Source: Siphonodentalium dalli (lineage: Eukaryota > Mollusca > Scaphopoda > Gadilida > Siphonodentaliidae). From it: a stretch of 64,000 nucleotides of DNA. The DNA lies in assembly GCA_032622095.1 (NCBI GenBank), contig CP136066.1, forward strand, positions 167,534,664-167,598,663, read 5' to 3'. The notes beneath the pieces were generated by a model. It was not told the origin of the DNA and made no database searches. It saw only the letters and a list, made by a program, of their open reading frames with translations. Below are positions 5,857-62,781 of the stretch, one piece after another (position 1 is the first letter of the stretch; every line of letters starts with the position of its first letter). Both the position numbers and the translations under genes were made by a program.

Positions 5857-6063
5857 GGTCCAATCCAGTGCCGTCAGTGTTTGCGGACATACAGAACACT
5901 GGGCAGCTATAAACATCATTTCTACTTTCACCATTCAGATAAGATTTACCCGTGTATCATTTGTGGCAGGGAATTTCGTAAGAACAGTTCAATGCAAAGA
6001 CACCAAAGTGTTCACAGTAAACTTCTAAATGTCACTGACTATCAGCCTGGATTATTCGGATGA
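5857..6063 (+). CDS. E1: two-finger C2H2 terminal exon
   Basis: Encodes 68 residues from the base after the acceptor to TGA. Finger 1 uses C5, C8, H21 and H25/H26, with core YRTLGSYKHHFYFHH. Finger 2 uses C33, C36, H49 and H53, with IICGREFRK and helix NSSMQRH. A 15-residue tail ends GLFG. The second Lys of the usual TKGSY is Leu here. As a C2H2 domain it is expected to bind DNA in the nucleus as the C-terminal tip of a longer protein. It starts 66 nt after a dispersed repeat and has a poly(A) signal 18 nt past the stop. The start is set by the splice site, because no in-frame ATG lies at the 5' edge. It is the most upstream cassette seen; more may lie to the left. Confidence 0.85.
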   Translation, partial: GPIQCRQCLRTYRTLGSYKHHFYFHHSDKIYPCIICGREFRKNSSMQRHQSVHSKLLNVTDYQPGLFG

Positions 6064-6080
6064 CACGGAGCGCATGCTAG

Positions 6081-6086
6081 AATAAA
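6081..6086 (+). terminator. Poly(A) signal AATAAA of E1
   Basis: AATAAA lies 18 nt after the E1 stop, which implies a very short 3' UTR for that isoform. Confidence 0.55.
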
Positions 6087-6231
6087 GATAAAATCTCCAA
6101 TCTTCAATTAGAATCTGATGAATACCAGCCCTGGGAATTGAGAAAAATATGCCTTGGCAATATGTACTAGTAGGTGGATGAATTCGATCTAGGCAAAACA
6201 ATATTTTCTCAATGCAATTTCAATCTCAAAG

Positions 6232-6377
6232 GAAATATGGCTTGTTGCCATTCATCGGAAAGCTCTCGCTGAGAGCTTTCCGATGAATGGCAACAAGCCA
6301 TATTTCCGATTAAATCCTGAAAAGTTACCCATAATTCTGCTGTGGTTAAGGAGTCCATTATTTAGGGCATTACTGTA
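6232..6377. mobile_element. Family A fold-back MITE, left end missing
   Basis: Starts inside the left arm at ggaaatatggcttgttgcca, turns at gctctcgctgagagc, and ends ggcattactgta. It lies 168 nt past the E1 stop. Confidence 0.85.
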
Positions 6378-6728
6378 CCTACATGTGTATAAAGTGGTGT
6401 CACCGCAGTAAAGTTACCGCTTCAAAACCACAATGCATGCAGGATTTAAAGAAATTAAAAGCAAGATTTCAAACAGAAATGTCAAAATTGCAATTGTAAA
6501 ATGTTATTAACAAATGACTTGCAATTTTGGTGAATGCGACATGATTGTGCTTTATTGTAATCTTTCAGCTGAGTGCCCCACAATGTAGCACGCAGTGAAC
6601 TTTACGTGACTTTGTAGTTGCCGACATTGTTTTGGCTGTCAAACTATGAACTCCGTGCATCGCCTTGTGTCATGCCGCTTTGATTGACATTACAAATGCA
6701 GCCATGAACATGAACAAGATTCTCCTTA
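6378..6728. other. No recognised feature
   Basis: Unique-looking non-coding sequence between two family A copies. Confidence 0.45.
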
Positions 6729-6935
6729 TACAGTAATGCCCTAATTAATCGACTTCTTAACCACAGCAGAATTATGGGTAATTTTTCAGGATTTAGTCGG
6801 AAATATGGCTTGTTGCCATTCATCTGAAAGCTCTCGGCGAGAGTTTTCTGATGAATGGCAACAAGCCATATTTCCGACTAAATTACCCATAATTATGCTG
6901 TGGTTAAGAAGTCGATTAATTAGGGCATTACTGTA
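6729..6935. mobile_element. Family A fold-back MITE, full length
   Basis: TA-cagtaatgcccta at the left and tagggcattactg-TA at the right, with long near-perfect arms meeting at gctctcggcgagag. Confidence 0.9.
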
Positions 6936-7088
6936 TCTGTGTAACTTAACGAGATCCTTGTGGACATATTCTTTTTTTTTAAACTTTTGGTGTGACGACC
7001 CGCTAATAGACCGCAGTATCACAACTGCACGGAACCGTAACTTCACCACAGTGACCACTGTGGATATCGTATAATACAGGTAATACAG

Positions 7089-8261: not shown

Positions 8262-8326
8262 GTAATACAGCAGTCATTACCGGGGTATCACCCCGTTTTT
8301 CAAGTCAATTACTTTGAGACTGGTGT

Positions 8327-11862: not shown

Positions 11863-12081
11863 GCCCCATTTCAATGTTCGTTGTGTCACAGACGTTACAA
11901 GACAAAAGGAAGTTACGACCATCATTTCTACTTCCATCACAACGACAGGGTCTTTCCCTGTCCGACCTGCGGAAAAACATTTCCTAGGGCTACTGATATG
12001 CGGAAACACCATGTTGTTCACGAGCGACAGAAGTATAGAGTTCTAGCTTTACAGCTGTCACAAGATAATACTGACCAATAG
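11863..12081 (+). CDS. E2: two-finger C2H2 terminal exon
   Basis: Encodes 72 residues to TAG. Finger 1 uses C5, C8, H21 and H25/H26, with YKTKGSYDHHFYFHH. Finger 2 uses C33, C36, H49 and H53, with CPTCGKTFPR and helix ATDMRKH. The tail is glutamine-rich (LQLSQDNTDQ). Unlike most siblings it has FPC for YPC and Pro-Arg where others have Arg-Lys before the helix. The acceptor tract ggttttgttttctccgcag is good, but a family D repeat begins just upstream, so the branch point may sit inside repeat sequence. The 3' flank is homologous to that of E11 and is broken by a family A MITE 62 nt past the stop. Confidence 0.87.
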   Translation, partial: APFQCSLCHRRYKTKGSYDHHFYFHHNDRVFPCPTCGKTFPRATDMRKHHVVHERQKYRVLALQLSQDNTDQ

Positions 12082-12904: not shown

Positions 12905-13303
12905 ATAACCCTTTACCCAACAGAAGGGCCCTGTGCCAATGCATTCTCTTATATATGCGAGTCGACCATAGGTCGCCTCGCATATATAAGAGAATGCATT
13001 GGCTTAACACATTAAAAATTATAAAATTGTTAAAGAATGTAAGAAAAAATGGTAAAAAGTGTTAAAAAAAGATTTTTTTTAGGCCAATGCATTCTCTTAT
13101 ATATGCGAGGCAACCTATGGTCGACTCGCATATATAAGAGAATGCATTGGCACAGGGCATAACTGTAACTATCACAATGTGGTCAAGGAGCCGGTTCCAA
13201 TGATATCCATATTTGTATGGTTCTATTGAGACAGACCGAAGATATTTGAGGCTGTTGAAGCTTTATTTGGCCGGTTTTGGCCGTTTTGTTGGGTAAAGGG
13301 ATA
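12905..13303. mobile_element. Family B composite MITE with two hairpins
   Basis: Termini ccctttacccaacag and gttttgttgggtaaaggg. It contains two copies of the palindrome ccaatgcattctcttatata joined by an AT-rich spacer. Confidence 0.8.
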
Positions 13304-13448
13304 AAGCGGATATCTGGAAAAATCCAAATCCAATAAGTGCTATGCAATACAAAAAGCCCATTTATAAAATGATTATAATGAGAAAACATAGAGTTTAAAG
13401 TGAAACACTCTGGTGTGGTGGTCAAATTGAAATCAAGAATAATCTTGC

Positions 13449-13995: not shown

Positions 13996-14560
13996 TATGA
14001 GAGAGAGGTCATTTCTCCCTGGGACAAAACTTGGAAGGAGTGACACGCTGTGGGGAGATTTCTCCCTTCAAGCCTGAAAATAGTGTCTGACATTTGCCGA
14101 ATGAGGTCCCCAGAGTGTGAATTTAGTGATGCTATCCCGCACGGCAGGCTAGCATCGCCAAATTCACCCTATGGGAACCTCATTCTGCTTAGGCTGCAAC
14201 TGCTATGTTGAAATTGGTGATGTTCACCCATTAGTCACCTCGATTATGCATTGTATATTCTGCAAATTAGAGTATATAGAAACTGAAGAGAAGGGAAAAA
14301 TTGCATCTAAATACAATGTTAATTTGAGACTATAGAAGCTTCCCAGAAGATGAGGCTTATTAAAGCAGTATGAGGTCCCCAGAGGATGAGTTTGCAAACT
14401 CCAGCCTGATGTGTGTGGTAGCTTCACTAAATTCACCCTCTGGGGACTTCATTCTGCAAATGTCAGACACACTATTTCAAGGCTTTTCTCCCATGTTGCC
14501 CTCTAGGCTGGTCCTCTCCCAAGTCACCCTCTAGACTGGTCCCTGGTGTTTTTTATTTGT
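13996..14560. repeat. Family F repeat carrying a nested family E copy
   Basis: Family E (14083-14472) has inverted ends gtgtctgacatttgc and gcaaatgtcagacac. It interrupts family F, whose halves are tctccctgggacaaaacttg and gccctctaggctggtcc. Confidence 0.6.
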
Positions 14561-14564
14561 TTGC

Positions 14565-14662
14565 ATGGTACTGACTGGTGTGTTTGTTTTCTCTGCCCGG
14601 AACTGACTGGTGTGTTTGTTTTCTCTGCTCGGAACTGACTGGTGTGTTTGTTTTCTTCGCAG
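14565..14662 (+). promoter_or_regulatory. Tandem branch-point/pyrimidine-tract units and acceptor of E3
   Basis: Three ~31-bp units of actgactggtgtgtttgttt plus ctctgc. Only the last one ends in the CAG used as acceptor (14660-14662). The others have gcccgg or gctcgg at that place. ctgac fits the animal branch-point consensus. Confidence 0.7.
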
Positions 14663-14884
14663 TATCCATTCCAGTGCGAGCTGTGTATGCGAGTGTACAG
14701 AACGAAAGCCAGCTACCAGGATCACTTCCAGTACCACCATTCTGGGAGAGTCTATCCCTGCCTCATTTGTGGCAAGGAATTCAGAAAAGTCAACAATCTT
14801 AATCGACACATGACAATTCACACTCGCCAGAGTCTGAAAAAAGGGATTAACATACATGTAGAACATCCTTCAAATAGGTTCTAA
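14663..14884 (+). CDS. E3: two-finger C2H2 terminal exon
   Basis: Encodes 73 residues to TAA. Finger 1 uses C5, C8, H21 and H25/H26 (YRTKASYQDHFQYHH). Finger 2 uses C33, C36, H49 and H53 (CLICGKEFRK, helix VNNLNRH). The finger region is closest to E4, with which it also shares the odd repeat array in front and family F further upstream, so the pair looks like a local duplication. The last codons (EHPSNRF and stop) belong to the first unit of a tandem repeat that continues downstream, so the C-terminal tail may have been set by that repeat. A family A MITE starts 46 nt after the stop. Confidence 0.88.
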   Translation, partial: YPFQCELCMRVYRTKASYQDHFQYHHSGRVYPCLICGKEFRKVNNLNRHMTIHTRQSLKKGINIHVEHPSNRF

Positions 14885-16151: not shown

Positions 16152-16513
16152 ACCTGGAACTGACTGGATGCATTTGTATTATTTTCCGCCCGGAACTGAC
16201 TGGAAACATTTGTGTTTTCTGCCCAGAACTGACTGGTTTGTTTTTGTGTTTTCTGCCCAGAACTGACTGGTTGTGTTTGTATTTTCTGCCCGGAACTGAC
16301 TGGTTGTGTTTGTATTTTCTGCCCGGAACTGACTGGTTGTGTTTTATGCCCGGAACTGACTGGTTGTATTTTCTGCCCGGAACTGACTGGGGTTGTGTTT
16401 GTATTTTCTGCCCGAAACTGACAGGTTGTGTTTGTATTTTCTGCCCGGAACTGACTGGTTGTGTTTGTATTTTCTGCCTGGAACTGACTGGTTTGTGTTT
16501 GTTTTTTCTGCAG
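16152..16513 (+). promoter_or_regulatory. Eleven-unit branch-point/pyrimidine-tract array and acceptor of E4
   Basis: The word aactgac occurs at about 16159, 16195, 16227, 16261, 16295, 16327, 16352, 16380, 16416, 16449 and 16482. Each is followed by a T-rich stretch and tctgcc. The true acceptor ctgcag is at 16508-16513. Two internal units read ctgcccag (ending about 16226 and 16260) and could act as competing acceptors. Confidence 0.7.
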
Positions 16514-16699
16514 CCTCCATTCCAGTGTTTGCTGTGTATGAGAATTTACAGTACGAAAGGCAGCTACAAGGATCATTTCAACTATCATCATTCTGGGAAA
16601 GTCTATCCCTGCCCTATCTGTGGCAAGGAGTTCAGAAAAGTCAACGATCGTAACAGGCACACCGCAATTCACAATCGAATGAGAGGCATGCAACATTAG
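16514..16699 (+). CDS. E4: two-finger C2H2 terminal exon
   Basis: Encodes 61 residues to TAG. Finger 1 uses C5, C8, H21 and H25/H26 (YSTKGSYKDHFNYHH). Finger 2 uses C33, C36, H49 and H53 (CPICGKEFRK, helix VNDRNRH). The short tail is NRMRGMQH. The repeat array in front remains open in this frame, but the repeats end in the splice site and are read here as intron. The next acceptor is only 244 nt past the stop, so the E4 3' UTR and the E5 intron end are packed together; two AATAAA signals sit in that gap. Confidence 0.9.
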   Translation, partial: PPFQCLLCMRIYSTKGSYKDHFNYHHSGKVYPCPICGKEFRKVNDRNRHTAIHNRMRGMQH

Positions 16700-16943: not shown

Positions 16944-17123
16944 AGACCATTCAGGTGTCCATTGTGTCAGCGTACATACAGAACCAAGGGCAGTTACTCT
17001 GATCATTTCACTTTCCATCATTCCGACAAAGTCTATCCATGTCCTATCTGTGGTCGACAATTTCGAAAAAGTGGTGATTTAAAACGACATAAAGAGGTTC
17101 ACAACAGATGGAATTTGTATTAA
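16944..17123 (+). CDS. E5: two-finger C2H2 terminal exon
   Basis: Encodes 59 residues to TAA, with no in-frame ATG, so it is found only through its acceptor (ctttcctctacag, ending at 16943). Finger 1 uses C5, C8, H21 and H25/H26 (YRTKGSYSDHFTFHH). Finger 2 uses C33, C36, H49 and H53 (CPICGRQFRK, helix SGDLKRH). The six-residue tail NRWNLY makes this one of the shortest cassettes. The spacing from E4 is the tightest in the window. The nearest downstream AATAAA (17567-17572) lies within the family K transposon, so the isoform's 3' end may be transposon-derived. Confidence 0.88.
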   Translation, partial: RPFRCPLCQRTYRTKGSYSDHFTFHHSDKVYPCPICGRQFRKSGDLKRHKEVHNRWNLY

Positions 17124-18063: not shown

Positions 18064-18234
18064 ACGGGGTACCAGTGTGAATTATGCAGTAGAATATACA
18101 GAACACGGGACAGTTATCGCGGACACTTCCAATATCATCACTCAGGCAAAATTTATCCGTGTACCATATGTGGCAAAGAGTTTAGAAAGAGGCAGAATAT
18201 GTTACAACACACAGCAGCTAAACATCGGAATTAG
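18064..18234 (+). CDS. E6: two-finger C2H2 terminal exon
   Basis: Encodes 56 residues to TAG, the shortest cassette. Finger 1 uses C5, C8, H21 and H25/H26 (YRTRDSYRGHFQYHH). Finger 2 uses C33, C36, H49 and H54, so its last histidine is one residue later than in its relatives (TAAKH). The helix is RQNMLQH, with Gln where almost all others have Arg before the first His. The acceptor region caacaactgacttgtgtctc then ttgttttcttcacag shows one copy of the aactgac unit that is amplified before E3 and E4. Confidence 0.88.
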   Translation, partial: TGYQCELCSRIYRTRDSYRGHFQYHHSGKIYPCTICGKEFRKRQNMLQHTAAKHRN

Positions 18235-19148: not shown

Positions 19149-19436
19149 AAAGTGTACCAGTGTGGTGAATGCCAGCGGACGTATGGGACCAAGGGCAGTT
19201 ACCAGCATCATTTCTATTATCACCACAATTACAAAATACATGCATGTCATATATGTGGAAGGGAGTTCCGAAAATCTAATCATTTGAAACGGCATTTAAT
19301 TTCACACGATCGCAAGACCTTGCCTGGCGATATAAGTGTGCCAGCCACAGTATCTCAAAGTCAGCAATGGCTGTTTGATCATAATCCATCGATTTCTCAA
19401 GATCCTCGTCTAAACTGTGAAAAATATCAAAATTGA
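19149..19436 (+). CDS. E7: two-finger C2H2 terminal exon with long tail
   Basis: Encodes 95 residues to TGA. Finger 1 uses C5, C8, H21 and H25/H26 (YGTKGSYQHHFYYHH). Finger 2 uses C33, C36, H49 and H53 (CHICGREFRK, helix SNHLKRH). Between them HAC replaces the usual YPC. A 42-residue polar tail rich in Ser, Gln and Asn follows. The acceptor tract is tttgtttcttttcttcccgcag, with an aactgac branch-point candidate about 40 nt upstream of the exon. Downstream is a family D element whose repeated units carry AATAAA at 19662 and 19800. Confidence 0.88.
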   Translation, partial: KVYQCGECQRTYGTKGSYQHHFYYHHNYKIHACHICGREFRKSNHLKRHLISHDRKTLPGDISVPATVSQSQQWLFDHNPSISQDPRLNCEKYQN

Positions 19437-22444: not shown

Positions 22445-22831
22445 TTAACCCTTTACCCAACAAAACGGCCAAAACCGGCCAAATAAAGCTTCAACAGCCT
22501 AAAATATCTTCGGTCTGTCTCAATAGAACCATACAAATATGGATATCATTGGAACCGGCTCCTTGACCACATTTTGATAGTTACAGTTATGCCCTGTGCC
22601 AATGCATTCTCTTATATATGTGAGTCGACCATAGGTCGCCTCGCATATATAAGAGAATGCATTGGCCTAAAAAACACTTTTTACCATTTTTTCTTACATT
22701 CTTTAACAATTTTATAATTTTTAATGTGTTAAGCCAATGCATTCTCTTATATATGCGAGGCGACCTATGGTCGACTCGCATATATAAGAGAATGCATTGG
22801 CACAGGGCCGTTCTGTTGGGTAAAGGGTTAA
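22445..22831. mobile_element. Family B composite MITE, intact TTAA ends
   Basis: Reverse orientation relative to the copies at 12905 and 24712. TTAA at 22445-22448 and 22828-22831. Confidence 0.85.
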
Positions 22832-25793: not shown

Positions 25794-26090
25794 ACTCTGT
25801 TCCACTGTTCGTTATGTGAGCGAGGTTACAAGACTAAAGGAAGTTTCCGAGACCATTTCTCTTTCCATCATTCCAACAAAGTATATCCCTGTTCAACCTG
25901 TGGGAAGACGTTCAAGAAAACAGGTCACTTGAAGAGGCACCAAAATGTTCATTCTACTACAGGACGTGTCCGTGGCCAACAAAGTGTTCGTGCTGCAGTG
26001 ACTATTCCTGACCAACAAAATGATTATGGACCAGTTGACTCCAACCAAACTCAACAATTTGAATTCACCCGGTTCCAGTCATATATGTAG
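25794..26090 (+). CDS. E8: two-finger C2H2 terminal exon, longest two-finger cassette
   Basis: Encodes 98 residues to TAG; the fingers precede any in-frame ATG, so the exon is visible only through its acceptor (acatttttatttcacag, ending at 25793). Finger 1 uses C5, C8, H21 and H25/H26 (YKTKGSFRDHFSFHH). Finger 2 uses C33, C36, H49 and H53 (CSTCGKTFKK, helix TGHLKRH). The 45-residue tail is rich in Gln, Asn and Val and ends FQSYM. The Arg-Gly pair at residues 10-11 replaces the usual Arg-Thr/Ile/Val. It stands alone, 6.4 kb after E7 and 4.7 kb before E9, with repeats on both sides. Confidence 0.87.
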   Translation, partial: TLFHCSLCERGYKTKGSFRDHFSFHHSNKVYPCSTCGKTFKKTGHLKRHQNVHSTTGRVRGQQSVRAAVTIPDQQNDYGPVDSNQTQQFEFTRFQSYM

Positions 26091-30761: not shown

Positions 30762-31022
30762 ACCCTATTCAGATGTGATGATTGCAACCGTGTGTACAGA
30801 TCAAAAGGCAGCTTCGTTAACCATTTTAGCTTCCATCATTCTGGCAGAATTTACCCATGTCAAGTTTGTGGGCGAGAGTTTCGCAAAGCTAGCAGTCTCA
30901 AGCGACACACCGCCATACACGATAGGACATTCCGCTGTGACTTGTGTGAATTCGTCTGTGATGCTAAGGAAAAACAGATGTACCATATCATGAAAAACCA
31001 TCCATGGGTTGGCGCAAAATAA
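30762..31022 (+). CDS. E9: two-finger exon with an added third finger
   Basis: Encodes 86 residues to TAA. Finger 1 uses C5, C8, H21 and H25/H26 (YRSKGSFVNHFSFHH). Finger 2 uses C33, C36, H49 and H53 (CQVCGREFRK, helix ASSLKRH). Finger 3 follows with the short linker DRTFR and uses C59, C62, H75 and H80, with a C66 inside. Fingers 1-2 are of the E1-E8 type, but the third finger resembles the E11-E14 class only in position, so this exon bridges the two groups. The acceptor is tttgttttgtttcctctgcag. AATAAA overlaps the stop (31018-31023). The long inverted repeat sits in the intron just upstream. Confidence 0.88.
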   Translation, partial: TLFRCDDCNRVYRSKGSFVNHFSFHHSGRIYPCQVCGREFRKASSLKRHTAIHDRTFRCDLCEFVCDAKEKQMYHIMKNHPWVGAK

Positions 31023-33809: not shown

Positions 33810-34499
33810 GTGGTCGAAATAAACCCGGATTACAGTTATGACCAAAGCTCTTTTACCATATTAGGAAATGATTTGAACATTGTCACTCCAGTGGGCAGCA
33901 TCGAAGTGGAAGATTTTATTTGTCAAAAAGAAAAAGGTCTTGATAAGAGTGATAAATCACAACAAGATCAGAAGTCAGATAATAAAAATCAGAAAGGTAG
34001 CACAAAACAGAAACGTCGTGCCTCGAGACAGAAATGCTTTGTTTGCGAAACTTGTGGTAAAATGCTGACGTCGAAAAGTGGTTTGGTTGTTCATCGCCGT
34101 TTACATGATGATGGTGATGGTTACACTTGTGAGTTCTGTGGAAAGAAGTTCGCTCAAAAGATTTCACTGGAGGGCCATGTGAATAAACACAAGGAAAGCA
34201 AACCGCACTTATGTTCGCAATGTGGCAAATGTTTTTATCACAAAACAAGCCTACTCCGACATCAGAAGACCTGCAAAACAGATGTTAAACCTAAACCTTC
34301 AGTTCGAAGATCGATTCCAGGATTTTATGGTTGTACTTTTTGTCATAAAAAGTTTTCAAGGAAAGATAGCTTGCAGGATCACATTGATACGGAACATGAG
34401 GGGAAGACTCGTACATGTCGGGACTGTGGTAAAGAGTACTTTAGAAGGAGCAGTCTTTCCAAGCATAGGAAAGCAACAGGACACATGGGTCCATCATAG
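33810..34499 (+). CDS. E10: five-finger exon with its own linker
   Basis: Encodes 229 residues to TAG after the acceptor tttatttgtccattttcag. Residues 1-37 are acidic to neutral (INPDYSYDQSSF; SIEVEDF). Residues 38-75 are Lys/Gln/Ser-rich and end in the basic stretch KQKRRASRQK, a likely nuclear signal. Fingers are 1: C79, C82, H95, H99; 2: C107, C110, H123, H127; 3: C135, C138, H151 and C155 (a C2HC form); 4: C175, C178, H191, H196; 5: C203, C206, H219, H225. Fingers 3 and 4 are split by about 20 residues (KTDVKPKPSVRRS). It is entered in phase 0 like its neighbours but does not share their finger register. It could be an older isoform or an unrelated exon recruited to the gene. Upstream open codons across the acceptor are read as intron. 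Confidence 0.85.
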   Translation: MVEINPDYSYDQSSFTILGNDLNIVTPVGSIEVEDFICQKEKGLDKSDKSQQDQKSDNKNQKGSTKQKRRASRQKCFVCETCGKMLTSKSGLVVHRRLHDDGDGYTCEFCGKKFAQKISLEGHVNKHKESKPHLCSQCGKCFYHKTSLLRHQKTCKTDVKPKPSVRRSIPGFYGCTFCHKKFSRKDSLQDHIDTEHEGKTRTCRDCGKEYFRRSSLSKHRKATGHMGPS

Positions 34500-36663: not shown

Positions 36664-36936
36664 GGAATGTTAAAATGCACTGATTGTGGCAGATCATACT
36701 CAACAAGAGCTAGCTTCCTCATGCACTTCAAGTATCACCATAGCAACGAAGTATACTCATGTGACGTCTGCGGCCGAACATTCAAGGGGAAGAACACCCT
36801 AACGAGACATGAATACACTCATTCGCAGCAGAAACCATACCAGTGTCTTGTCTGCGAGTGTTCGTTTATCCAGAGATTTCAGCTTGATGTTCATATGAAG
36901 CAAAAACATCCGGAGTACCCATGGATGAACAATTGA
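36664..36936 (+). CDS. E11: three-finger C2H2 terminal exon
   Basis: Encodes 90 residues to TGA. Finger 1 uses C5, C8, H21 and H25/H26 (YSTRASFLMHFKYHH). Finger 2 uses C33, C36, H49 and H53 (CDVCGRTFKG, helix KNTLTRH). After the linker SQQKPYQ, a variant of the classic TGEKPY joint, finger 3 uses C61, C64, H77 and H82 (helix RFQLDVH). The end is HPEYPWMNN. Fingers 1-2 keep the register of E1-E9. The acceptor tract is ccgtttttgtttcctctgcag. A poly(A) signal lies 54 nt past the stop, and the 3' flank is homologous to that of E2 although the two exons are of different classes. Confidence 0.9.
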   Translation, partial: GMLKCTDCGRSYSTRASFLMHFKYHHSNEVYSCDVCGRTFKGKNTLTRHEYTHSQQKPYQCLVCECSFIQRFQLDVHMKQKHPEYPWMNN

Positions 36937-47766: not shown

Positions 47767-50700
47767 TTAATTTATTTTGTTTTTTGTATTCATAAGCGGT
47801 TGTAAAAATGCCGTTTTCCAAAAAAAATTATTATATAAAATGCTACCATTCTCTCAGAATTATATTTGGATATTATTCATTGTTATTAGAGTGATGATTT
47901 GAACATAATTATTCCATATTTGAACCATTGTTTCATCATTTTAATTGAGATATTACATATCTCCTATTTTCGTTATATAGACGACTACTGCACTGGTCGA
48001 TTACAATTTTGTAAAGCCGACTTCGCCCTATCGCATTCACACTTCGCCTTATTTTTGTGACAGGGAGAAGTCACTTCACCGTGAAAATCAGGTCTAGGCT
48101 GGTCCCTGGTTGAACACCAATATTACTGTGTTGCTCGACTGTTCTGATGCGATCAGCATTATCACCACCACAGAGAGAGTATATTTCTGGTATTGTATGA
48201 TGCTGCATTGATGATGTAATTGTGAATGTCAGTCATTGACCAACTTCGAATGTTGATTAAACCGTAAAAAGTTTATTAATTGAAATATTGTTTTGTATAT
48301 AGTTAATGCAGTGCATGGCGCTCACGAAAAACTTGACTCTGTGTAAGGCAGCCATGTGAAAATTAATGCGGAGTACGGCGGTCGTAAACAATTATTACTA
48401 GTACCGCAGTAAGTTTTAATACCTGCGGATGCCTCATATCAACCACTTGACCATGGTTGAATGGCAGTATAACCGATGTCATTATTGTTCAAGGGGTTGA
48501 TTAATTGGAGCATAGCTTTAGGTTCACCACCATCATGACTGCTTTCAAAAGACAGGCAAATAACTTTATTCATGTTTTCCATTATAGAGTTATCCTTCTT
48601 TGTTTAAATGGAAATATGGATTTTTTTTGTCTGTCTGCGCAGATCTCTCAGCCATGGGCTATATTATCTGATTGAAATTTGGTATGGGGTTTCATGATCA
48701 TGACTGCTTTCAAACGAGGGGCAAAGTGATGTTCATGTTTTCCATTATAGAGTTATTTTTATATTTTTTGTTGGTACTCATAGATATCTCAGCCAGATCA
48801 TTGCAGTGGTCTTCAGTAGTTTGGGTCTATACCTGCCCATGTTTGAATTTGCAATCGTGGGGTAATGCCAGCACCGCCCATGCAACTTCTTGTTTGTGTT
48901 GCGAGTACATTTAAAAAATGTTATTGTGTAACTGGTACATGTATCTGTGAAGATAGATGCAATCTTTTAACCATCCAATTTGAAGTTATACCCCATGTTT
49001 ATTATTTCACCCCAATTTTCCCCCCTGAAAGACTATATCGAAATGACGTTCAGCCCTCGAAATTAGGAAAAATGTCCCATGGCAAATTCAATGTTGTGGC
49101 ATTATACATGTAGATTCCACATGTTGTCACAGTGTTTCCCCATGGCATTGCTTATTGTCGTGGCCAAATTCGAGGACTGGATGTACCATTTTCCTTTTGT
49201 TCATGTCTGTTTGTGTGTCTGAATTTCTGTAAATCACAATACAGTCTCTACTGTAAATATTTGAAACTTCTGGATATTTGTTACTGAGATATTGAAGAAG
49301 AGCAACTTGTAATATTGTATATACTTGTAGATTATGGAAAAATTAAATTGATTAAAGTGAGATTTTGACCGTTATTGCGTCTTATCAATCCTTGGATCCA
49401 AACTCCCAATGGGACCAAATTCAGTCTTGAGTGAACCAAGACCTTGAACCCTTTACCCAACAAAACGGCCAAAACCGGCCAAATAAAGCTTCAACAGCCT
49501 AAAATATCTTCGGTCTGTCTCAATAAAACCATACAAATATGGATATCATTGGAACCGGCTCCTTGACCACATTGTGATAGTTACAGTTATGCCCTGTGCC
49601 AATGCATTCTCTTATATATGCGAGTCGACCATAGGTCACCTCGCATATATAAGAGAATGCATTCTTACATTCTTTAACAATTTTATAATTTTTAATGTGT
49701 TAAGCCAATGCATTCTCTTATATATGCGAGTCGACCATAGGTCGCCTCGCATATATAAGAGAATGCATTGGCTTAACACATTAAAAATTATAAAATTGTT
49801 AAAGAATGGGCCCTTCTGTTGGGTAAAGGGTTAACAGCTATTTATCACATACATTAGCCCCCAAACCCGGCCTCATATTTTGAGTAAGACGTGCGTTTAT
49901 TATCGGCACGCGCAGTGAAATAAGAGCTTAACTCAATGGTATCGATGTCAATGCTGGAACTTTATTATAATGTTATTATTATAATATAATTATAATATTT
50001 GATTTGTGTTGGGTTATTAGCTCAACTTTACTTTGTAAAGTTTGAGCTATTGCCATGGCTTTGTCGTCCGTGTGTATGTGTGTGCGTGTGTACGTGTGTA
50101 TGTAAGGCGTCAACAATGCAGGCTACAGGTCGTACCTTTCGTCGGATCATTATGAAATTTGTCATAGCTGTTGACATCAACATTCGGAAAAAAAACATGG
50201 CCGCCAGTGGCCATATTGGATTTCAAAATTCAATCCATTAGCACGGGCTACAGGCCGTACTGTTTGTCTGATCTTCATGAAATTTGTCATGGATGTTAAT
50301 ATTGACATGTAGATGGGAACGAGTAATTTTGGGGTCATTCGGCCCAAAAACATGGCCGCCAGCAGTATCTTGGATTTTACTCTTTGTATGACTAAATTCT
50401 TTAGCACGGGCTACAGGTCGTACTTTTAGTCTGATCATCATAAATTTTGTCAAGAATGTTAATAATGACATGTAGATGGGAACGAGTCATTTTGGGGTCA
50501 TTCGGCCAAAAAACATGGCCGCCAGCAGCCATCCTGTATTTTCAAAATTCAATCCATTAGCACGGGCTATAGGTCGTACCTTTAGTCTGATCATCATAAA
50601 GTTTGTCATGGCTGTTGAAATTGGAATGTAGATGGGAACGAGTCATTTTGGGGTCATTCGGACAAAAAACATGGCCGCCAACAGCCATCTTGGATTTCAA

Positions 50701-50944
50701 AATTTAATCCATTAGCACGGGCCACAGGTCGTACTGTTCGTCTGATCACCATGAAATTTGTCATGGATGATAATATTGACATGTAGATGGGAACGAGTAA
50801 TTTTGGGGTCATTCGGCCAATAAACATGGCCGCCAGCAGCCATCTTCGATTTTACTCTTTGTATGACTAAATTCTTTAGCACGGGCTGCAGGTCGTACCT
50901 TTAGTCTGATCATCATAAAATTTGTCATGGATATTAACAATGAC
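46503..50944 (+). repeat. 4,443-bp tandem duplication, copy 2
   Basis: Appears base-identical to copy 1 by eye except for one A fewer at about 50510. Divergence resumes after about 50978 (ggctaaaaaacatggtc). Confidence 0.9.
47767..50018. other. Spacer between arrays 2 and 3
   Basis: Second copy of the 43324-45575 spacer, with its family B element at 49444-49834. Confidence 0.6.
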
Positions 50945-53066
50945 ATGTAGATGGGAACGAGTAATTTTGGGGTCATTCGGCTAAAAAACATGGTCGCCAG
51001 CAGCCATCTTGGATTTTACTCTTTGTATGACTAAATCCTTTAGCACGGGCTACAGGTCCTACTTTTAGTCTGATCATCATAAAATTTGTCATGGTTGAAA
51101 TTGGAATGTAGATGGGAACGAGTCATTTTGGGGTCATTCGGACAAAAAACATGGCCACCAGCGGCCATATTGGGTTTAAAAATTTAATCCATTAGCACGG
51201 GCCACAGGTCGTACTGTTCTTCTGATCATCATGAAATTTGTCATGGATGATAATATTGACATGTAGATGGGAACGAGTAATTTTGGGGTCATTCGGCCCA
51301 AAAACATGGCCGCCAGCAGCCATCTTGGATTTTACTCTTTGTATGACTAAATTCTTTAGCACGGGCTGCAGGTCGTACCTTTAGTCTGATCATCATAAAA
51401 TGTGTCATGGATGTTAACAATGACATGTAGATGGGAACGAGTAATTTTGGGGTCATTCGGCCAAAAAACCTGGACGCCAGCAGCCATCTTGGATTTTACT
51501 CTTTGTATGACTAAATCTTTTAGCACGGGCTACAGGTTGTACCTTTAGTCTGATCATCATGAAATTTGTCATGAATGTTAATAATGACATGTAGATGGGA
51601 ACGAGTCATTTTGAGGTCATTCGGCCGAAAAACATGGCCGCCAGCAGCCATCTTGGATTTTACTCTTTGTATGACTAAATCCTTTAGCACGGGCTACAGG
51701 TCGTACCTTTAGTCTGATCATCATAAAATTTGTCATGGTTGTTGAAATTGGAATGTAGATGGGAACGAGTCATTTTGGGGTCATTCGGACAAAAAACATA
51801 TTGGATTTAAAAATTTAATCCATTAGCACGGGCCACAGGTCGTACTGTTCTTCTGATCATCATGAAATTTGTCGTGGATGATAATATTGACATGTAGATG
51901 GGAATGAGTAATTTTGGGGTCATTCGGCAAAAAAACATGGCCGCCAGCAGCCATCTTGGATTTTACTCTTTGTATGACTAAATTCTTTAGCACGGGCTGC
52001 AGGTCGTACCTTTAGTCTGATCATCATAAAATGTGTCATGGATGTTAGCAATGACATGTAGATGGGAACGAGTAATTTTGGGGTCATTCGGCCAAAAAAC
52101 CTGGTCACCAGCAGCCATCTTGGATTTTACTCTTTGTATGACTAAATCCTTTAGCACGGGCTACAGGTTGTACCTTTAGTCTGATCATCATGAAATTTGT
52201 CATGAATGTTAATAATGAAATGTAGATGGGAACGAGTCATTTTGAGGTCATTCGGCCGAAAAACATGGCCGCCAGCAGCCATCTTGGATTTTACTCTTTG
52301 TATGACTAAATCCTTTAGCATGGGCTACAGGTCGTACCTTTAGTCTGATCATCATAAAATTTGTCATGGTTGTTGAAATTGGAATGTAGATGGGAACAAG
52401 TCATTTTGGGGTCATTCGGACAAAAAACATGGCCGCCAGTGGCCATCTTGGATTTAAAAATTTAATCCATTAGCACGGGCCACAGGTCGTACTGTTCGTC
52501 TGATGATCATGAAATTTGTTATGGATGATAATATTGACATGTAGATGGGAACGAGTAATTTTGGGGTCATTCGGCCCAAAAAATGGCCGCCAGCAGCCAT
52601 CTTGGATTTTACTCTTTGTATGACTAAATTCTTTAGCGCGGGCTACATGTCATACCTTTAGTCTGATCATCATAAAATTTGTCATGAATGTTAATAATGA
52701 CATGTAGATGGGAACGAGTCATTTTGGGATCATTCGGCCAAAAAACATGGCCGCCAGCAGCCATCTTGGATTTTACTCTTTGTATGACTAAATTCTTTAG
52801 CATGGGCTACAGGTCGTACCTTTAGTCTGATCGTCATAAAATTTGTCATGGATGTTAACGATGACATGTAGATGGGAACGACTCATTTTGGGGTCATTCG
52901 GCCGAAATCATGGCCGCCAGCAGCCATCTTGGATTTTACTTTTCTTTTCATGTCTATAAACATGTATTAGATATTCAACTTTCCACATTCCTAATGGCTC
53001 CATTGACTGTAATACATTAAATTATTCCCTTTCCAAGTTGAGCTACAGTGTCATTGACACTTTCAT
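50019..53066 (+). mobile_element. Helentron-like satellite element, array 3
   Basis: About eighteen units. Inside it, a block of about 730 bp (from about 51080 and again from about 51720) is repeated as a higher-order unit. The right end is more diverged (cttttcatgtctataaacat). Confidence 0.75.
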
Positions 53067-54216
53067 TATTTAGTATTGAGAGATAAACATGGTTTTGTAA
53101 CTTTTCATTTGAGTACTACGGGTACTAGTACTTCCACTCAAATTATGCTAATGCTGTCAAAGGCCAATTGGCCAATGGCCATTTTTTTGGGTGAAAATGG
53201 CCAAACAATATTTAATTTGGTAATTTTGTTTTTTTTTTACCTCAAAATCGAAAATCTAATTCAAAAACCCAAATTGATTTTGTAACAAGAGCGACATGAG
53301 AATCAAATTTATAGTATGATCATCTGCCAATTGATTAGGTGATGCAGCTTAATGGGTAACAAATGCATTCATGGCAGTGCATAATCAAACAGTGGGCCAC
53401 CAAATGCAATAAAACAGCAATGAGGGTTAACACTAATGAATTCTTTGTATGTTATAGGGCTGAATGGTAGATGGTGGGTAGTGGTATATTGTCAAGTAAC
53501 AATGGTGGGGTTAAAAAAAAGTCTAGACATGTTATTTGAAGGTATCAAAATAATTATATAGAATATTAGATGTTAAATAAAGCAAAATTATTCATTTATA
53601 TATTAATAATTGTGAGACCAGAACTTGAGGATTTAATCTGGACACAGTTTTTTTCATTTGGCCAAAAAAAAAATCAGAATTGGCCAAAAAATTGGCCGAA
53701 AGATTTTTCGGCCCAGCGTGAACACTGTTCAAGCATGCAACAACTCAACGCTTCAATGTTATCTCACTTCATCAGTCTTATGACACTGATAAGTAAAACT
53801 TTTCGGTGATTGGCCTTGGAAGGGAGGACCTTACTTTTAGACTGTCTTTGGACAACATGCTAGCAATATCTTGTTGGGGCAAATGTCAGAAAATTTCATG
53901 ATGACATTATTGACTTAGTCTGTTTCAAGGACCAGCCTAGATGGCGACTTGTGATACATCTCCCTAAATTTCACCACTTCTCCCTTTTATTGCTCCCTTT
54001 TATGGTCCTTGTCCTTGGCAGAAGTTAATTTTCTCTTTAATATACTCTATATTCTCAGTATGCATATTTCCGAACAGCATTTGGACGTCTATTTACAGAT
54101 TATAATGGTGTGCATTCTGATTATAATGGTAATACAAATGCACTCTTGTATTTCATAATACTTATTGGATCACAAAAAGATGAAGGTGAAGAGTAAATTG
54201 AACTTCAGCCTTTATT
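53067..54216. other. Spacer between arrays 3 and 4
   Basis: Non-coding. A family F segment (aaggaccagcctagatggcg to tgaacttcagcc) fills 53930-54210. Confidence 0.5.
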
Positions 54217-57200
54217 AGCTCAACTTTACTTTGTAAAGTTTGAGCTATTGCCATGGCTTTGTTGTCCGTCGTCCGTGTGTACGTGTGTACGTGTGTGCGT
54301 GTGCGCGTGTGTGCGTGTGTACGTAAGGCGTCAACAATAGAGGCTACAGGTCGTACCTTTGATCGGATCATTATGAAATTTGTCATAGCTGTTGACATCA
54401 ACATTTGTACCAGAATGATTCATTTTGGGGTCATTCGGAAAAAAAACATGGCCACCAGCGGCCATCTTAGATTTCAAAATTCAATTCATTAGCACGGGCT
54501 ACAGGCCGTACTGTTCGTCTTATCGTCATGAAATTTGTCATGGATGTTAATATTGACATGTAGATGGGAACGAGTAATTTTGGGGTCATTCGGCCAAAAA
54601 ACATGGCCGCCAGCAGCCATCTTCGATTTTACTCTTTGCATGACTAAATCCTTTAGCACGGGCTACAGGTCGTACCTTTAGTCAGATCGTCATAAAATTT
54701 GTCATGGATGTTAACAATGACATGTAGATGGGAACGAGTCATTTTTGGGTTATTCGGGCAAAAAACATGGCCGCCAGCAGCCATCTTGGATTTTACTCTT
54801 TGTATGACTAAATCCTTTAGCACGGGCTACAGGTCGTACCTTTAGTCTGATAATCATGAAATTTATCATGGCTGTTGAAATTGGAATGTAGATGGGAACG
54901 AGTCATTTTGGGGTCATTCGGACAAAAAAAAATGGCCGCCAGTGGCCATCTTTGTTTTCAAAATTCAATCCATTAGCACGGGCCACAGGTCGCACTGTTC
55001 GTCTGATCATCATGAAATTTGTCATGGATGTTAACAATGACATGTAGATTGGAAAGAGTCATTTTGGAGTCAATCGGCCAAAAAACATGGCCGCCAGCAG
55101 CCGTCTTGGATTTTACTCTTTGCATGACTAAATCCTTTAGCACGGGCTACAGGTCCTACTTTTAGTCTGATCATCATAAAATTTGTCAAGAATGTTAATA
55201 ATCACATGTAGATGGGAACGAGTCATTTTGGGGTCATTCGGCCAAAAAACATGGCCGTCAGCAGACATCTTGGATTTTACTCTTTGTATGACTAAATCCT
55301 TTAGCACGGGCTACAGGTCGTACCTTTAGTCTGATCATTATAAAATTTGTCATGGCTGTTGATATTGGAATGTAGATGGGAACGAGTCATTTTGGGGTCA
55401 TTCGGACAAAAAACATGGCCGCCAGCGGCCATCTTGGATTTCAAAATTTAATCCATTAGCACGGGCTACAGGTCGTACTGATTGTCTGATCATCATGAAA
55501 TTTGTCATGGATGATAATATTTACATGTAGATGGGAACGAGTAATTTTGGGGTCATTCGGCCAAAAAACATGGCCACCAGCAGCCATCTTAGATTTTACT
55601 CTTTGTATGACTAAATTCTTTATCACGGGCTGCAGGTCGTACCTTTAGTCTGATCATCATAAAATTTGTCATGGATGTTAACAATGACATCTAGATGGGA
55701 ACGAGTAATTTTGGGGTCAATCGGCCAAAAAACATGGTCGCCAGCAGCCATCTTGGATTTTACTCTTTGTATGACTAAATCCTTTAGCACGGGCTACAGG
55801 TTGTATCTTTAGTCTGATCATCATAAAATTTTTCATGAATGTTAATAATGACATGTAGATGGGAACGAGTCATTTTGGGGTCATTCGGCCAAAAAAGATG
55901 GCCGCCAGCAGCCATCTTGGATTTTACTCTTTGTATGACTAAATCCTTTAGCACGGGCTACAGGTCGTACCTTTAGTCTGATCATCATAAAAATTTTCAT
56001 GGCTGTTGAAATTGGAATGTAAATGGGAACAAGTCATTTTGGGGTCATTCGGACAAAAAACATGGCCGCCAGCGGCCATCTTGGATTTCAAAATTTAATC
56101 CATTAGCACGGGCTACAGGTCGTACTGATTGTCTGATCATCATGAAATTTGTCATGGATGATAATATTTACATGTAGATGGGAACGAGTAATTTTGGGGT
56201 CATTCGGCCAAAAAACATGGCCACCAGCAGCCATCTTAGATTTTACTCTTTGTATGACTAAATTCTTTATCACGGGCTGCAGGTCGTACCTTTAGTCTGA
56301 TCATCATAAATTTGTCATGGATGTTAACAATGACATGTAGATGGGAACGAGTAATTTTGGGGTCAATCGGCCAAAAAACATGGTCGCCAGCAGCCATCTT
56401 GGATTTTACTCTTTGTATGACTAAATCTTTTAGCACGGGCTACAGGTTGTATCTTTAGTCTGATCATCATAAAATTTTTCATGAATGTTAATAATGACAT
56501 GTAGATGGGAACGAGTCATTTTGGGGTCATTCGGCCAAAAAAGATGGCCGCCAGCAGCCATCTTGGATTTTACTCTTTGTATGACTAAATCCTTTAGCAC
56601 GGGCTACAGGTCGTACCTTTAGTCTGATCATCATAAAAATTTTCATGGCTGTTGAAATTGGAATGTAAATGGGAACAAGTCATTTTGGGGTCATTCGGAC
56701 AAAAAACATGGCCGCCAGCGGCCATCTTGGATTTCAAAATTTAATCCATTAGCACGGGCTACAGGTCGTACTGATTGTCTGATCATCATGAAATTTGTCA
56801 TGGATGATAATATTTACATGTAGATGGGAACGAGTAATTTTGGGGTCATTCGGCCAAAAAACATGGCCACCAGCAGCCATCTTAGATTTTACTCTTTGTA
56901 TGACTAAATTCTTTAGCACGGGCTACAGGTCGTACCTTTAGTCTGATCATCATAAAATTTGTCATGGATGTTAACAATGACATGTAGATTGGAACTAGTC
57001 ATTTTGGGGTCATTCGGCCAAAAAACATGGCCACCAGCAGCCATCTTAGATTTTACTCTTGTATGACTAAATTCTTTAGCACGGGCTACAGGTCGTACCT
57101 TTAGTCTGATCATCATAAAATTTGTCATGGATGTTAACAATGACATGTAGATGGGAACGACTCATTTTGGGGTCATTCGGCCGAAAACATGGCCGCCAGC

Positions 57201-57345
57201 AGCCATCTTGGATTTAACTTTTCTCTTCATGTCTATAAACTAGTATTAGACATTCAACTTTCCACATTCCTAATCGCTCCATTGACTGTAATATATTAAA
57301 TTATTCCCTTTCCAAGTTGAGCTACAGTGTCATTGACACTTTCAT
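54217..57345 (+). mobile_element. Helentron-like satellite element, array 4
   Basis: About nineteen ~161-bp units, with a higher-order repeat of about 655 bp (55440-56095 repeated at 56096-56750). The left GT tract is longer than in the other copies. Confidence 0.75.
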
Positions 57346-58189: not shown

Positions 58190-58453
58190 ATAAGTTTCCA
58201 ATATCCCGACTACAAGAGACTTAACATGTCGGATCCCGGATATCTCAGCAATAAGGAGAAAGGTCTTATGGGTTTCATGTGTGAAGAATGCGGAAAAGAG
58301 TTCAGGAGAAAGGAGGATTGTAAAAGACACTCGTACACTCATAAGCTACAGAAACCATTCCAGTGTTCTTGTTGTTATAAATCGTTCACAATGAAATACC
58401 GTCTTCTCAAACATATGAGACGCTATCACCCTGGAATTGTAGAACTTGTATAA
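58190..58453 (+). CDS. E12: terminal exon with a dead first finger and two live fingers
   Basis: Encodes 87 residues to TAA after the acceptor ccttttgttttctcttcag. By alignment with E13, the first-finger cysteines are Tyr (Y5, Y8; codons tat and tac), the first His is Asn (N21), and the later His is lost with a two-residue shortening. So this finger cannot hold zinc. Finger 2 uses C31, C34, H47 and H51 (CEECGKEFRR, helix KEDCKRH). Finger 3 uses C59, C62, H75 and H80, with extra C61. Linkers are HKLQKPFQ. The frame stays open and the other fingers are intact, so it is likely still used. A family A MITE starts 19 nt past the stop and broken copies of its 3' part follow at 58678. Confidence 0.85.
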   Translation: MSFQYPDYKRLNMSDPGYLSNKEKGLMGFMCEECGKEFRRKEDCKRHSYTHKLQKPFQCSCCYKSFTMKYRLLKHMRRYHPGIVELV

Positions 58454-59581: not shown

Positions 59582-59680
59582 CATGCTTGGAAAAAAATTG
59601 TTTGGCACCCCCTGCAGGGAATGGAAAAAGCAATGACTGAAAACATTTGTCTGAAATCCGCCGTTTTGTTTTCTCTTCAG

Positions 59681-59947
59681 GTAATGATCAAATGTCCAAA
59701 CTGCGAGAGATGTTACATGTCGGAGGCGGGATTCCTCAGGCACAAGGATTACTGTCATCTGCCCAATTTATTCCCATGCGAAGAATGTGGGCGGCATTTT
59801 GTTAGAAAGAAAGACTATATAAGGCACATGTATACTCACAGAGAGCAGAAACCCTTCCAGTGTCCCGGCTGTTCAAGCTCGTTCATACAGAAATTTCAAC
59901 TCAATACACACTTGAGACGCTATCACCCAGAAATTCTGACTCTCTGA
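59681..59947 (+). CDS. E13: three-finger C2H2 terminal exon
   Basis: Encodes 88 residues to TGA after the acceptor gccgttttgttttctcttcag, nearly identical to that of E12. Finger 1 uses C5, C8, H21 and H26, with Cys at 25 in place of the usual His (YMSEAGFLRHKDYCH). Finger 2 uses C33, C36, H49 and H53 (CEECGRHFVR, helix KKDYIRH). The linker is HREQKPFQ. Finger 3 uses C61, C64, H77 and H82 (helix KFQLNTH). E12 and E13 share the intron end, linkers and the RRYHP ending, so they are sister duplicates, with E13 keeping the intact first finger. Confidence 0.9.
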   Translation, partial: VMIKCPNCERCYMSEAGFLRHKDYCHLPNLFPCEECGRHFVRKKDYIRHMYTHREQKPFQCPGCSSSFIQKFQLNTHLRRYHPEILTL

Positions 59948-61605
59948 CATTTTCAGGGTTAACACATTCACTGCCGAATACAAGTTATCTCGTACTTTTT
60001 GCATGTAATTGGATGGGTGTAGGCAGTGAATATGTTATAGGGACCCAAGGCACTTGCAGTGGGTAATTGTGTAAAAAATATCAGTCTGTAAAACATCACC
60101 AATAATAGAAGAACACTTGGAGGAATAGATAAAACATTGTTCGTCCGTTTACTAGCCCAAATTAGAGGTAAAATTCGAATTTGGGTTCTGCTTGCCAATT
60201 TTCACCAGAGTTGTGGCTCTTTGTTGGAATTAGAACTGGCCTTCTTTGACACACCTAGCAATGCTCTTGTTGGTATATGAACCCCCGCTGATGGCTAGTT
60301 GTCTGGTTCTAATTAATTTAATCCTAGTCACCATGATCCAATGGTCCGATGGTTTCGACCATTAACATATATCATGATATGAAGATGTCATGCGTTCAAA
60401 TCCTGCTTGCTGCCGTTTAGCAGTACCAGAGCTGTTAAGTTTCACATATTGTATGTGAGACTCCCGGATAATTCGGCAAATACGGATAACTTCCAATTTC
60501 TCCCGGATTCAGCAAAACCCGGCAGTCAAAATCCCCAAAAATGATGTTATTGCCACTGTACAGTTTGTAATGCATACGTTTACTTATGTCTGTGACCAAT
60601 CTTTATCAGAGTCAGAGTTGTCTATCTTATCAACATTCACATTCACATAATTTTACGGAGTTAATGCACAAAACATATAACTTGTATCTATAAAACAATT
60701 GAATTCACTGTTAATACGGTACATCAATTGTTTCCATGAAATGTGTCTTCACATGTCATGCAATATGAGATATAAATTTTAATACTGTGCCATATGTAGA
60801 CAAAAATTGCCACAAAATAGTCCCATGCAAATCTGACAAATATTTGGGAAACTCATCATTGATGGACCGGTTTGAACACTATTCTGGTATTACAGTATGT
60901 GATCAGGCAATTTTTTAGTTCTCAAAATCCTTGTTGCACCTCCATTTCTCTGATTTTACAAGAATCTTATTAAAATCGGTGTGTGACAGAGGTGATTATT
61001 GGTAAGATAGACCACTCTTGTTGAGATTGTTCTGAGACATCTGAATCATCTTGGGTATCTAGTCCATTATTGGTGGCTTTTTTTGAATTTATATTACCAT
61101 AATCTGTAGATTAATTAGCTTTTTAAATATTCAGCTCTTTGATGACTGAATTATTTTATAATTAAAAATATGTTGCTAACCATGTCTGTTTATTTTAATA
61201 CCATTGGCTATATTATATAGTTACTTCTTTATGATGTTGCTGCATGTAACTTACTTATTTTGTAGTCTGAAATCTATAGGAGGGTGTCACCACATTCCTC
61301 CATCCAACCCCCACCCCTCCCCACTTTTGGTATGCAGGATACAGGCCATTTTCATGTGTTACGCAGGTACTCGAGATTCATATGCCCAATTCATGTATTT
61401 GGAAGATATGTGGTCGAAAAATTACACGTGCACACATTTATAGTACAAAATTTGGATTATTATCCAGCCCAAATGATATATTTTGATGTTATTCAGTCCA
61501 ACACATCTTGATATGTTGAAGTTATGGAGATTAATTTAGTAAATGTGTGAATCTATGATATTAGCATATAATAACTACGGTAAGTATGTATTCCATATTC
61601 TCTTA
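59948..61605. other. Presumed intron before E14, repeats only
   Basis: A dispersed repeat lies at 60140-60280 (ttttcaccagagttgtggct, caatgctcttgttgg), shared with 5665-5790. A weak Pol III-like A/B box pair lies at 60334-60344 and 60393-60403. No exon seen. Confidence 0.45.
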
Positions 61606-61610
61606 AATGG

Positions 61611-61843
61611 TATACAGGATTCACCCCTCTCTGTTAACTGGTATACAGGATTCACCCCTCTCTGTTAACTGGTATACAGGATTCACCTCTCTCTGTTAAC
61701 TGCATGGTATACAGGATTCACCCCTCTCTGTTTACTGGTATACAGGATTCACCCCTCTCTGTTAACTGGTATACAGGATTCACCCCTCTCTGTTAACTGG
61801 TATACAGGATTCCCCCCTCTCTGTTAACTGGTATTCAGGATTT
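61611..61843. repeat. 31-bp minisatellite, about eight copies
   Basis: Unit ggtatacaggattcaccc plus ctctctgttaact; copies differ by single bases and one four-base insertion near 61703. Confidence 0.92.
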
Positions 61844-61910
61844 AGGGGGGGTAATAGTAGGGAAGGCATGACCCCCTCCAATATAAAAAGATGGGATAAG
61901 AGACCCACAT

Positions 61911-62361
61911 TTAAATGTCCTCAAATGAGTTAAATTTTTGAATCACCCGATCACATTATTTTCAACATATTCCATATTATATACCATTGGAAATAGGAAG
62001 TTCCAAAACATTGTATAACGATTTATCTGGTCGAATAAACTGTTTTTTTGTCAAGGTACTGGTGTGTGTTCTGTGCTTAATTTCGGTATGCTCTGTACTG
62101 GCAGATTATTATTCTCAATGGAAGAGGGGTAACTCTATCTTTTAGTTGTGAATTATGATGCATTCTGGGGGTAAATAATGGCAGAAATCTTGGGGTGAAT
62201 CTGAGAATCTGTTATTACTTGGTAAACACAATTAGGCCCACAGCTGTTCTTTATTCTGGTGGAATATATATATATTTTTGTTCCTTTTCCAAATGGTATA
62301 TAATATGAAATATGTTGTGTATAATATGATCTGGGCATTTGAAAATTAAGTCGGGCTTTAA
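61911..62361. mobile_element. Family K TTAA element, second copy
   Basis: Inverted relative to 17323-17771. The shared interior includes gtgaattatgatgcattctg and ggtggaatatatatata. Confidence 0.7.
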
Positions 62362-62475
62362 AAAAAATTTAACTTAAAATTTTTGAATGTGTGCTGTATC
62401 ATGATATGAATTTTATGAAAATAAAAGTGTTGTGAAATCTGATAATCTTGATTTAATTTTTTATTTCCTCTACAG

Positions 62476-62781
62476 GGTTTGATAACATGCTCGGAGTGCG
62501 GGCGATCTTATTCCACAAAGGGAAGTTTTCTTATGCACAGAAAGTATCACCATTACCCAGACTCTCACCCATGCGATATATGTGGCCGCGTGTTCAAGAA
62601 ACGGAGTGACGTAAGAAGACATCTCTACACGCATTCGGATCAGAAACCTTATCCCTGTTCATACTGCGCCAGGTCCTTCTGTCAGAGAAATCAACTCAAA
62701 TCTCATCTGCTCCATAAGCACCCAGAAGTCACTGATATCGAAAGCCTACTAAACCCAGTCGCATCAAAAGAAACTCCCTAA
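62476..62781 (+). CDS. E14: three-finger C2H2 terminal exon, last of the array
   Basis: Encodes 101 residues to TAA after the acceptor tttaattttttatttcctctacag. Finger 1 uses C5, C8, H21 and H25/H26 (YSTKGSFLMHRKYHH). Finger 2 uses C33, C36, H49 and H53 (CDICGRVFKK, helix RSDVRRH). The linker is HSDQKPYP. Finger 3 uses C61, C64, H77 and H82 (helix RNQLKSH). A 17-residue tail follows (VTDIESLL to SKETP). It is closest to E11, 26 kb upstream, rather than to its neighbour E13. The family K element ends 114 nt before it. No poly(A) signal is obvious within 300 nt of the stop. Confidence 0.9.
   Translation, partial: GLITCSECGRSYSTKGSFLMHRKYHHYPDSHPCDICGRVFKKRSDVRRHLYTHSDQKPYPCSYCARSFCQRNQLKSHLLHKHPEVTDIESLLNPVASKETP

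Follow-up and report, generated by a model that had tools for sequence, protein, structure and literature searches.

A probable lola-like array of alternative zinc-finger terminal exons downstream of a shared BTB core

The closest described systems are insect genes in which a common 5′ part encoding a BTB domain is joined to differing 3′ parts. Specifically, lola (Drosophila longitudinals lacking) is described as having common N-terminal BTB exons and a large set of unique C-terminal exons that mostly carry zinc fingers, with at least 20 isoforms made by cis and trans splicing (PMC1947980). For mod(mdg4) in insects, at least 31 isoforms are reported that have the BTB-bearing 5′ part in common; their variable ends are mostly FLYWCH, and some of these ends are encoded on the opposite strand and added by trans-splicing (PMC4667647). 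Mammalian BTB-C2H2 proteins are described as usually carrying many fingers in one protein (PMC11426971), and large lineage-specific growth of C2H2 genes is reported from cephalopods (PMC12513265). Here we describe a 64,000-nt stretch of DNA (the window; C6:167534664-167598663 of a genome of 2.23 Gb in 9 contigs) that very probably represents the variable 3′ half of a single BTB-zinc-finger gene, with a shared BTB core to which terminal exons would be joined as alternatives, in the manner of lola.

The likeness to lola is that this locus, too, combines shared BTB exons with many finger-bearing terminal exons, and the likeness to mod(mdg4) is that the BTB-bearing 5′ part is common and the 3′ part variable, although the array here consists of C2H2 fingers and occupies one strand only. 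With vertebrate-type BTB-C2H2 (ZBTB) genes it shares a non-TTK BTB domain followed by C2H2 fingers, but its fingers are spread over alternative terminal exons. With the cephalopod expansions it shares large growth in the number of C2H2 units; those, however, were counted as genes by longest isoform, and the strings “BTB”, “splic” and “exon” occur 0 times in the main text of that study (PMC12513265). A literature search found no title describing such an array outside arthropods; most subscription journals lay outside its coverage, and this is not evidence that such arrays are undescribed.

In a six-frame scan of the window, C2H2 motif matches numbered 35 on the + strand against a single one on the - strand, whereas 40 first-order Markov shuffles of the window averaged 0.8 for the two strands combined and never exceeded 3. 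The + strand matches are distributed over 14 open frames, all of which have a phase-0 acceptor ahead of the first finger and a stop that closes them. The preliminary description of this DNA had listed fourteen + strand exons of this make-up, and all 14 were found in place, the tip beginning at 33810 being of another type. The tip exons, named hereafter by their first position, are as follows.

5857..6063, + strand: tip exon 1, phase-0 acceptor, two C2H2 fingers, stop
11863..12081, + strand: tip exon 2, phase-0 acceptor, two fingers, stop
14663..14884, + strand: tip exon 3, phase-0 acceptor, two fingers, stop; fold predicted
16514..16699, + strand: tip exon 4, phase-0 acceptor, two fingers, stop
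16944..17123, + strand: tip exon 5, phase-0 acceptor, two fingers, stop
18064..18234, + strand: tip exon 6, phase-0 acceptor, two fingers, stop
19149..19436, + strand: tip exon 7, phase-0 acceptor, two fingers, stop
25794..26090, + strand: tip exon 8, phase-0 acceptor (the lowest-scoring of the 14), two fingers, stop
30762..31022, + strand: tip exon 9, phase-0 acceptor, three finger matches, stop
33810..34499, + strand: tip exon 10, of a different type, phase-0 acceptor, long charged leader, five fingers, stop
36664..36936, + strand: tip exon 11, phase-0 acceptor, three fingers, stop
58190..58453, + strand: tip exon 12, phase-0 acceptor, degenerate first finger without ligands, two fingers, stop
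59681..59947, + strand: tip exon 13, phase-0 acceptor, three fingers, stop
62476..62781, + strand: tip exon 14, phase-0 acceptor, three fingers, stop

When all AGs in the window are ranked by a simple pyrimidine score, 12 of the 14 tip acceptors reach the 97.5th percentile or higher, and the remaining two, 5857 and 25794, lie at the 91.5 and 85.1 percentiles. Two lower-scoring AGs at 33810 would give phase 2 instead of 0, and some AGs further upstream of tips 16514 and 30762 imply other phases. The first Cys of the first finger stands exactly 12 nt after the exon start in every tip except 33810 and 58190 (12/14). Further, a donor-like hexamer is absent from nine tip exons and falls inside a finger in the other five. 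Neighboring tips are separated by 244 to 21,253 nt, in agreement with the gaps of 244 nt to 21 kb given previously.

A search to the left for a BTB domain, which the preliminary description had proposed as a check, yielded a BTB match 37 kb left of the window on the same strand, and a three-exon core 30-39 kb upstream whose phase matches that of the tips (a slash marks the exon end).

window -39061 to -38936, + strand: core exon 1, from ATG to LIVAK, donor GTAAGG, phase 0
window -36910 to -36297, + strand: core exon 2, beginning AHKVV, donor GTAAGT, phase 2
window -30332 to -29888, + strand: core exon 3, acceptor TTATCTTCCAG, donor CAGGAG/GTGGGT, phase 0

Joined, the three exons give 395 codons that are open across both joints and encode a BTB domain, a charged linker with a block around TMTPSLNQIRAQQSIKRSIQSSQSAARKARN, and a conserved basic block. 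Exons 1 and 2 together match PF00651 at 48.7 bits, against 37.7 for exon 2 alone (cut-off 20.5), and the closest solved BTB structures are those of ZBTB17/NAC1 (2e-9) and BACH1. The last core donor is in phase 0, the phase of all 14 window acceptors. Two features of the lola/mod(mdg4) group are present as read from the sequence: shared 5′ BTB exons with fitting phases, and many putative alternative 3′ exons that close the frame (14/14 in the window). The gene would fit the BTB-C2H2 transcription factors in the wide sense, with the joining of BTB to fingers deduced from phase.

The BTB domain of lola itself is of the TTK type. The core described here, which starts MEPKIYMNYIHPSSLLKQLSELWKTDQLCDAVITV, has no FxLRWN motif in the N-terminal extension of its BTB domain, and this sets it apart from lola; F.LRW was found in none of the frames of six of the eight best BTB loci, in + orientation only. 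TTK-type BTB domains are defined by FxLRWN and, in the source consulted, are reported from arthropods only, Mollusca and Annelida being among the groups searched (PMC11426971). Because the motif is absent and the type is reported from arthropods only, the window gene, judged by its sequence, is not a TTK-type member.

The interpretation given in the preliminary description is supported in part, above all as to a lola-like terminal-exon array on a BTB core. The array does not end with the 14 exons described but continues past the window edge to ~139 kb, making fourteen a lower bound. Five finger frames right of the window have a phase-0 acceptor, the acceptors at 100931 (pyrimidine fraction 0.56) and 121908 (0.69) being weaker.

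window 69344, + strand: finger frame with phase-0 acceptor
window 100931, + strand: finger frame with phase-0 acceptor
window 115285, + strand: finger frame with phase-0 acceptor
window 121908, + strand: finger frame with phase-0 acceptor
window 138786, + strand: finger frame with phase-0 acceptor

Save for a chance-like match at 83.7 kb, the finger frames right of the window all lie on the + strand, and the - strand there gave no finger match; in the 24.9 kb past the last finger frame, neither strand gave a finger match. The core donor lies 36 to 92 kb from the window tips and 169 kb from the last tip found. Four related frames of 6-7 fingers also occur on the + strand at window 74.8-93.0 kb and may have further exons; in one of them, 88978, the best acceptor is phase 0. 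A 7-finger frame that starts with ATG occupies window -11010 to -10000, in the interval separating the core from the first tip, and may be a separate gene.

In the mechanism that we propose, a single pre-mRNA would begin at the core, and the phase-0 donor of core exon 3 would be joined to one downstream acceptor at a time, a choice among at least 14, and perhaps ~20, terminal exons. Most of these exons open at a phase-0 3′ splice site, encode four residues and then two or three C2H2 fingers, and close with a stop; this stop and a poly(A) site beyond it would end the message. The joining would proceed mainly by long-range cis splicing with alternative polyadenylation. The resulting isoforms would have the BTB part in common, each with a different DNA-reading tip. 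We infer that the tips are joined as alternatives and, from anatomy rather than transcripts, that their use is mutually exclusive; they would also differ in DNA target.

That the tips are interchangeable terminal exons on a BTB core, as the preliminary description had it, is well supported both by the matching core and by the recurrence of the apparent arrangement elsewhere in the genome. Searched against its own genome, the core protein gave 58 matches, grouped into 31 places, and core exons 1 and 2 lie in order on one strand at 23 places (14 on C6, 5 on C4, 3 on C7 and 1 on C8). The window core thus has 22 further relatives in its own genome, a difference from lola. Core exon 3 was found at four loci, ending CARGAG/GTGGGT in each, and at four loci, the window locus included, tips lie downstream on the strand of their core. 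At the three non-window loci, the best acceptor was phase 0 in all 13 tips examined. Specifically, at C6:59.66 Mb the three core exons have the boundaries and phases of the window core, and seven of seven tips have a phase-0 best acceptor; at C6:198.88 Mb, on the - strand, core boundaries and phases are identical again, with two - strand tips, both phase 0 (a one-finger frame without an acceptor was excluded from this count, and a 330-residue frame at C6:198827477 lay outside the tip examination); and the C6:208.96 Mb locus has four tips at a distance of 76-91 kb downstream from core exon 2, all with phase 0 and the first Cys exactly 12 nt from the start.

Searches of the genome with single tips, in which the best 150 of ~16,000 first-look candidates were scored, returned mostly ordinary multi-finger frames. 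Among the 147 matches listed for tip 16944, the best nine were window tips, and short frames at C6:59.69-59.71 Mb were among the next. Among the 119 listed for tip 36664, seven outside the window locus had a frame of <155 residues, six of them downstream of a core and on its strand. In a tree of 23 tips (W33810 and W115285 were dropped from the 25 in hand), grouping was mostly by locus; 11 of 20 inner branches, and likewise the order of duplication, were not resolved. A comparison by eye did not bear out a conserved intron after the exon-3 donor: GTGGGTGTCAC is common to two loci and GTGGGTGCT stands at the third, with nothing alike seen further down.

Several other observations concern the core copies. 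Three cores stand in a row on one strand within ~0.31 Mb, at C6:59.345, 59.493 and 59.658 Mb, with tips read after the third only; they look as if whole core-plus-tips units had been duplicated in tandem. At C4:236451647-236452228 the core match runs through exons 1 and 2 in a single 275-residue frame, possibly a copied spliced message. At C4:171.24 Mb and at C7:60.30 Mb alike, the distance from core exon 1 to core exon 2 is exactly 19,907 nt, although exon 2 identity to the query is 51% and 38%, respectively; this may reflect chance or an old shared copy.

A number of points weigh against alternative terminal exons on a shared core. The array is known here from genomic DNA alone, and tips were sought at only 4 of the 23 core loci. 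A Met precedes the first finger in 3 of the 14 window tips, the upstream in-frame stop is >100 nt off in 5, and poly(A) hexamers follow the stops only at chance density (mean spacing on the + strand of the window, 520 nt). Among the 6-7-finger frames right of the window, 80873 has a best acceptor of phase 2, and 74844 and 92500 open inside a finger. A rival reading is that the tips are independent zinc-finger genes that arose by tandem duplication and possess 5′ exons of their own, with the BTB gene a mere neighbor. The many other C2H2 frames in the genome would suit this, as would the ATG-initiated frame upstream of the first tip, which may be one such gene. We nevertheless consider this very improbable, given that in 11 of the 14 tips no Met occurs from the acceptor up to the first finger, that 9 have an in-frame stop ≤60 nt upstream of the acceptor, that all 14 are in one phase, equal to that of the core donor, and that cores are accompanied by tips at three further loci. 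Still harder to credit is a decaying array of duplication relics without present function: the first finger of tip 58190 lacks ligands and much of the gap before it is satellite, but each of the 14 frames is open and has an acceptor, and amino acid replacements are constrained both in the core and in the sole unsaturated tip pair listed (see below).

How the tips would be joined to the core is a separate matter. In trans-splicing, as reported for part of lola and mod(mdg4), tips would be transcribed separately from promoters of their own, and the core transcript would be spliced to these other RNAs. The precedent in insects, the long distances from core donor to tips, and the retention of GTGGGT at all four loci despite its departure from the usual donor consensus, GTRAGT, speak for this route, which we hold to be unlikely. 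At all four loci, the tips found share the strand of their core, a requirement of cis splicing but not of trans-splicing, and this arrangement leans toward cis.

Alternative terminal exons on a shared core also accord with the apparent constraint on both parts, which look to be under selection against replacement changes. Between the window core and the C6:59.66 core, the proportions of synonymous (pS) and replacement (pN) differences were 0.81 and 0.03 in exon 1 and 0.82 and 0.25 in exon 2; in exon 3, the corresponding divergences were dS 1.12 and dN 0.13. Nine window tips gave 36 pairs, and among the 12 listed the single unsaturated pair, 14663/16514, had dS 0.55 and dN 0.15 (tip 33810 was left out of the tip alignment, and both 33810 and 58190 out of the helix comparison below).

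In the usual numbering of zinc-finger helix positions, 1 and 5 are not commonly regarded as main base contacts. In finger 2 of the nine first-type tips, helix position -1 is K in 8 and position 6 is R in 7, while position 2 (STNNGQNGS) and position 3 (SDNDDNHHS) vary; in finger 1, position 3 is fixed, -1 and 2 are nearly fixed, and 6 is variable. Given variable positions 2 and 3 beside near-fixed -1 and 6, the predicted DNA sites of the tips are related but different. Positions 1 and 5 of finger 2 are as variable as 2 and 3, and the pattern of variation alone is therefore no proof of selection for new targets. The AlphaFold2 model of tip 14663 shows a pair of helices and paired strand bridges, an arrangement typical of two C2H2 fingers, at a mean predicted local distance difference test (pLDDT) of 81.9.

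Repeats around the tips bear on how the array may have grown. Two tandem repeats run into tip acceptors.

14543..14656, + strand: 32-bp tandem repeat of a 3′ splice-site stretch, 3.6 copies, running into the acceptor of tip 14663
16156..16511, + strand: 33-bp tandem repeat with a branch-point-like CTGAC and a pyrimidine tract, 10.9 copies, running into the acceptor of tip 16514

In both repeats the 32-33 bp unit is built of the branch-point-like CTGAC and the pyrimidine tract, and most of its copies lack the CAG. A similar CTAAC or CTGAC occurs at -28 to -34 relative to tips 16944, 18064 and 19149. This suggests that these tips were duplicated along with their splice site. Elsewhere in the window, several arrays of a 164-bp satellite (40889-57219) take up much of the 21 kb that separate tip 36664 from tip 58190. 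An identical 115-residue frame occurs at 45044-45391 and 49487-49834, 4,443 nt apart, so part of the satellite region has itself been duplicated. A dispersed repeat of ~220 nt, in both orientations and 95-97% alike, lies at 13067-13306, 22445-22682, 24875-25085, 26830-27057, 45000-45220 and 49443-49663.

Across loci, the parts may obey one joining rule: cores end SQE, in phase 0, at GTGGGT, and tips begin in phase 0 with the first Cys mostly 12 nt on. Every core would then be in frame with every tip, making trans joining between loci conceivable. In the most far-reaching version, which we regard as improbable, a non-TTK BTB core evolved the lola design independently and multiplied into a core-plus-tips family with this one rule, and cross-locus trans joining could give genome-wide interchangeable regulators. 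As to the host, for which the preliminary description had suggested a mollusc-type genome, mollusc hemocyanin (PF14830) had 0 matches in the genome, and control genomes likewise gave none; some molluscs lack hemocyanin. Hemerythrin (PF01814) also had 0 matches in the genome.

Loci with different tip sets would serve as natural replicates for how one donor picks among terminal exons tens of kilobases apart, and the related-but-different DNA sites predicted for the tips are testable. Finally, if the host is not an arthropod, as the absence of FxLRWN from the core suggests without proving, the lola design would have had at least two origins, one of them in a different type of BTB domain.

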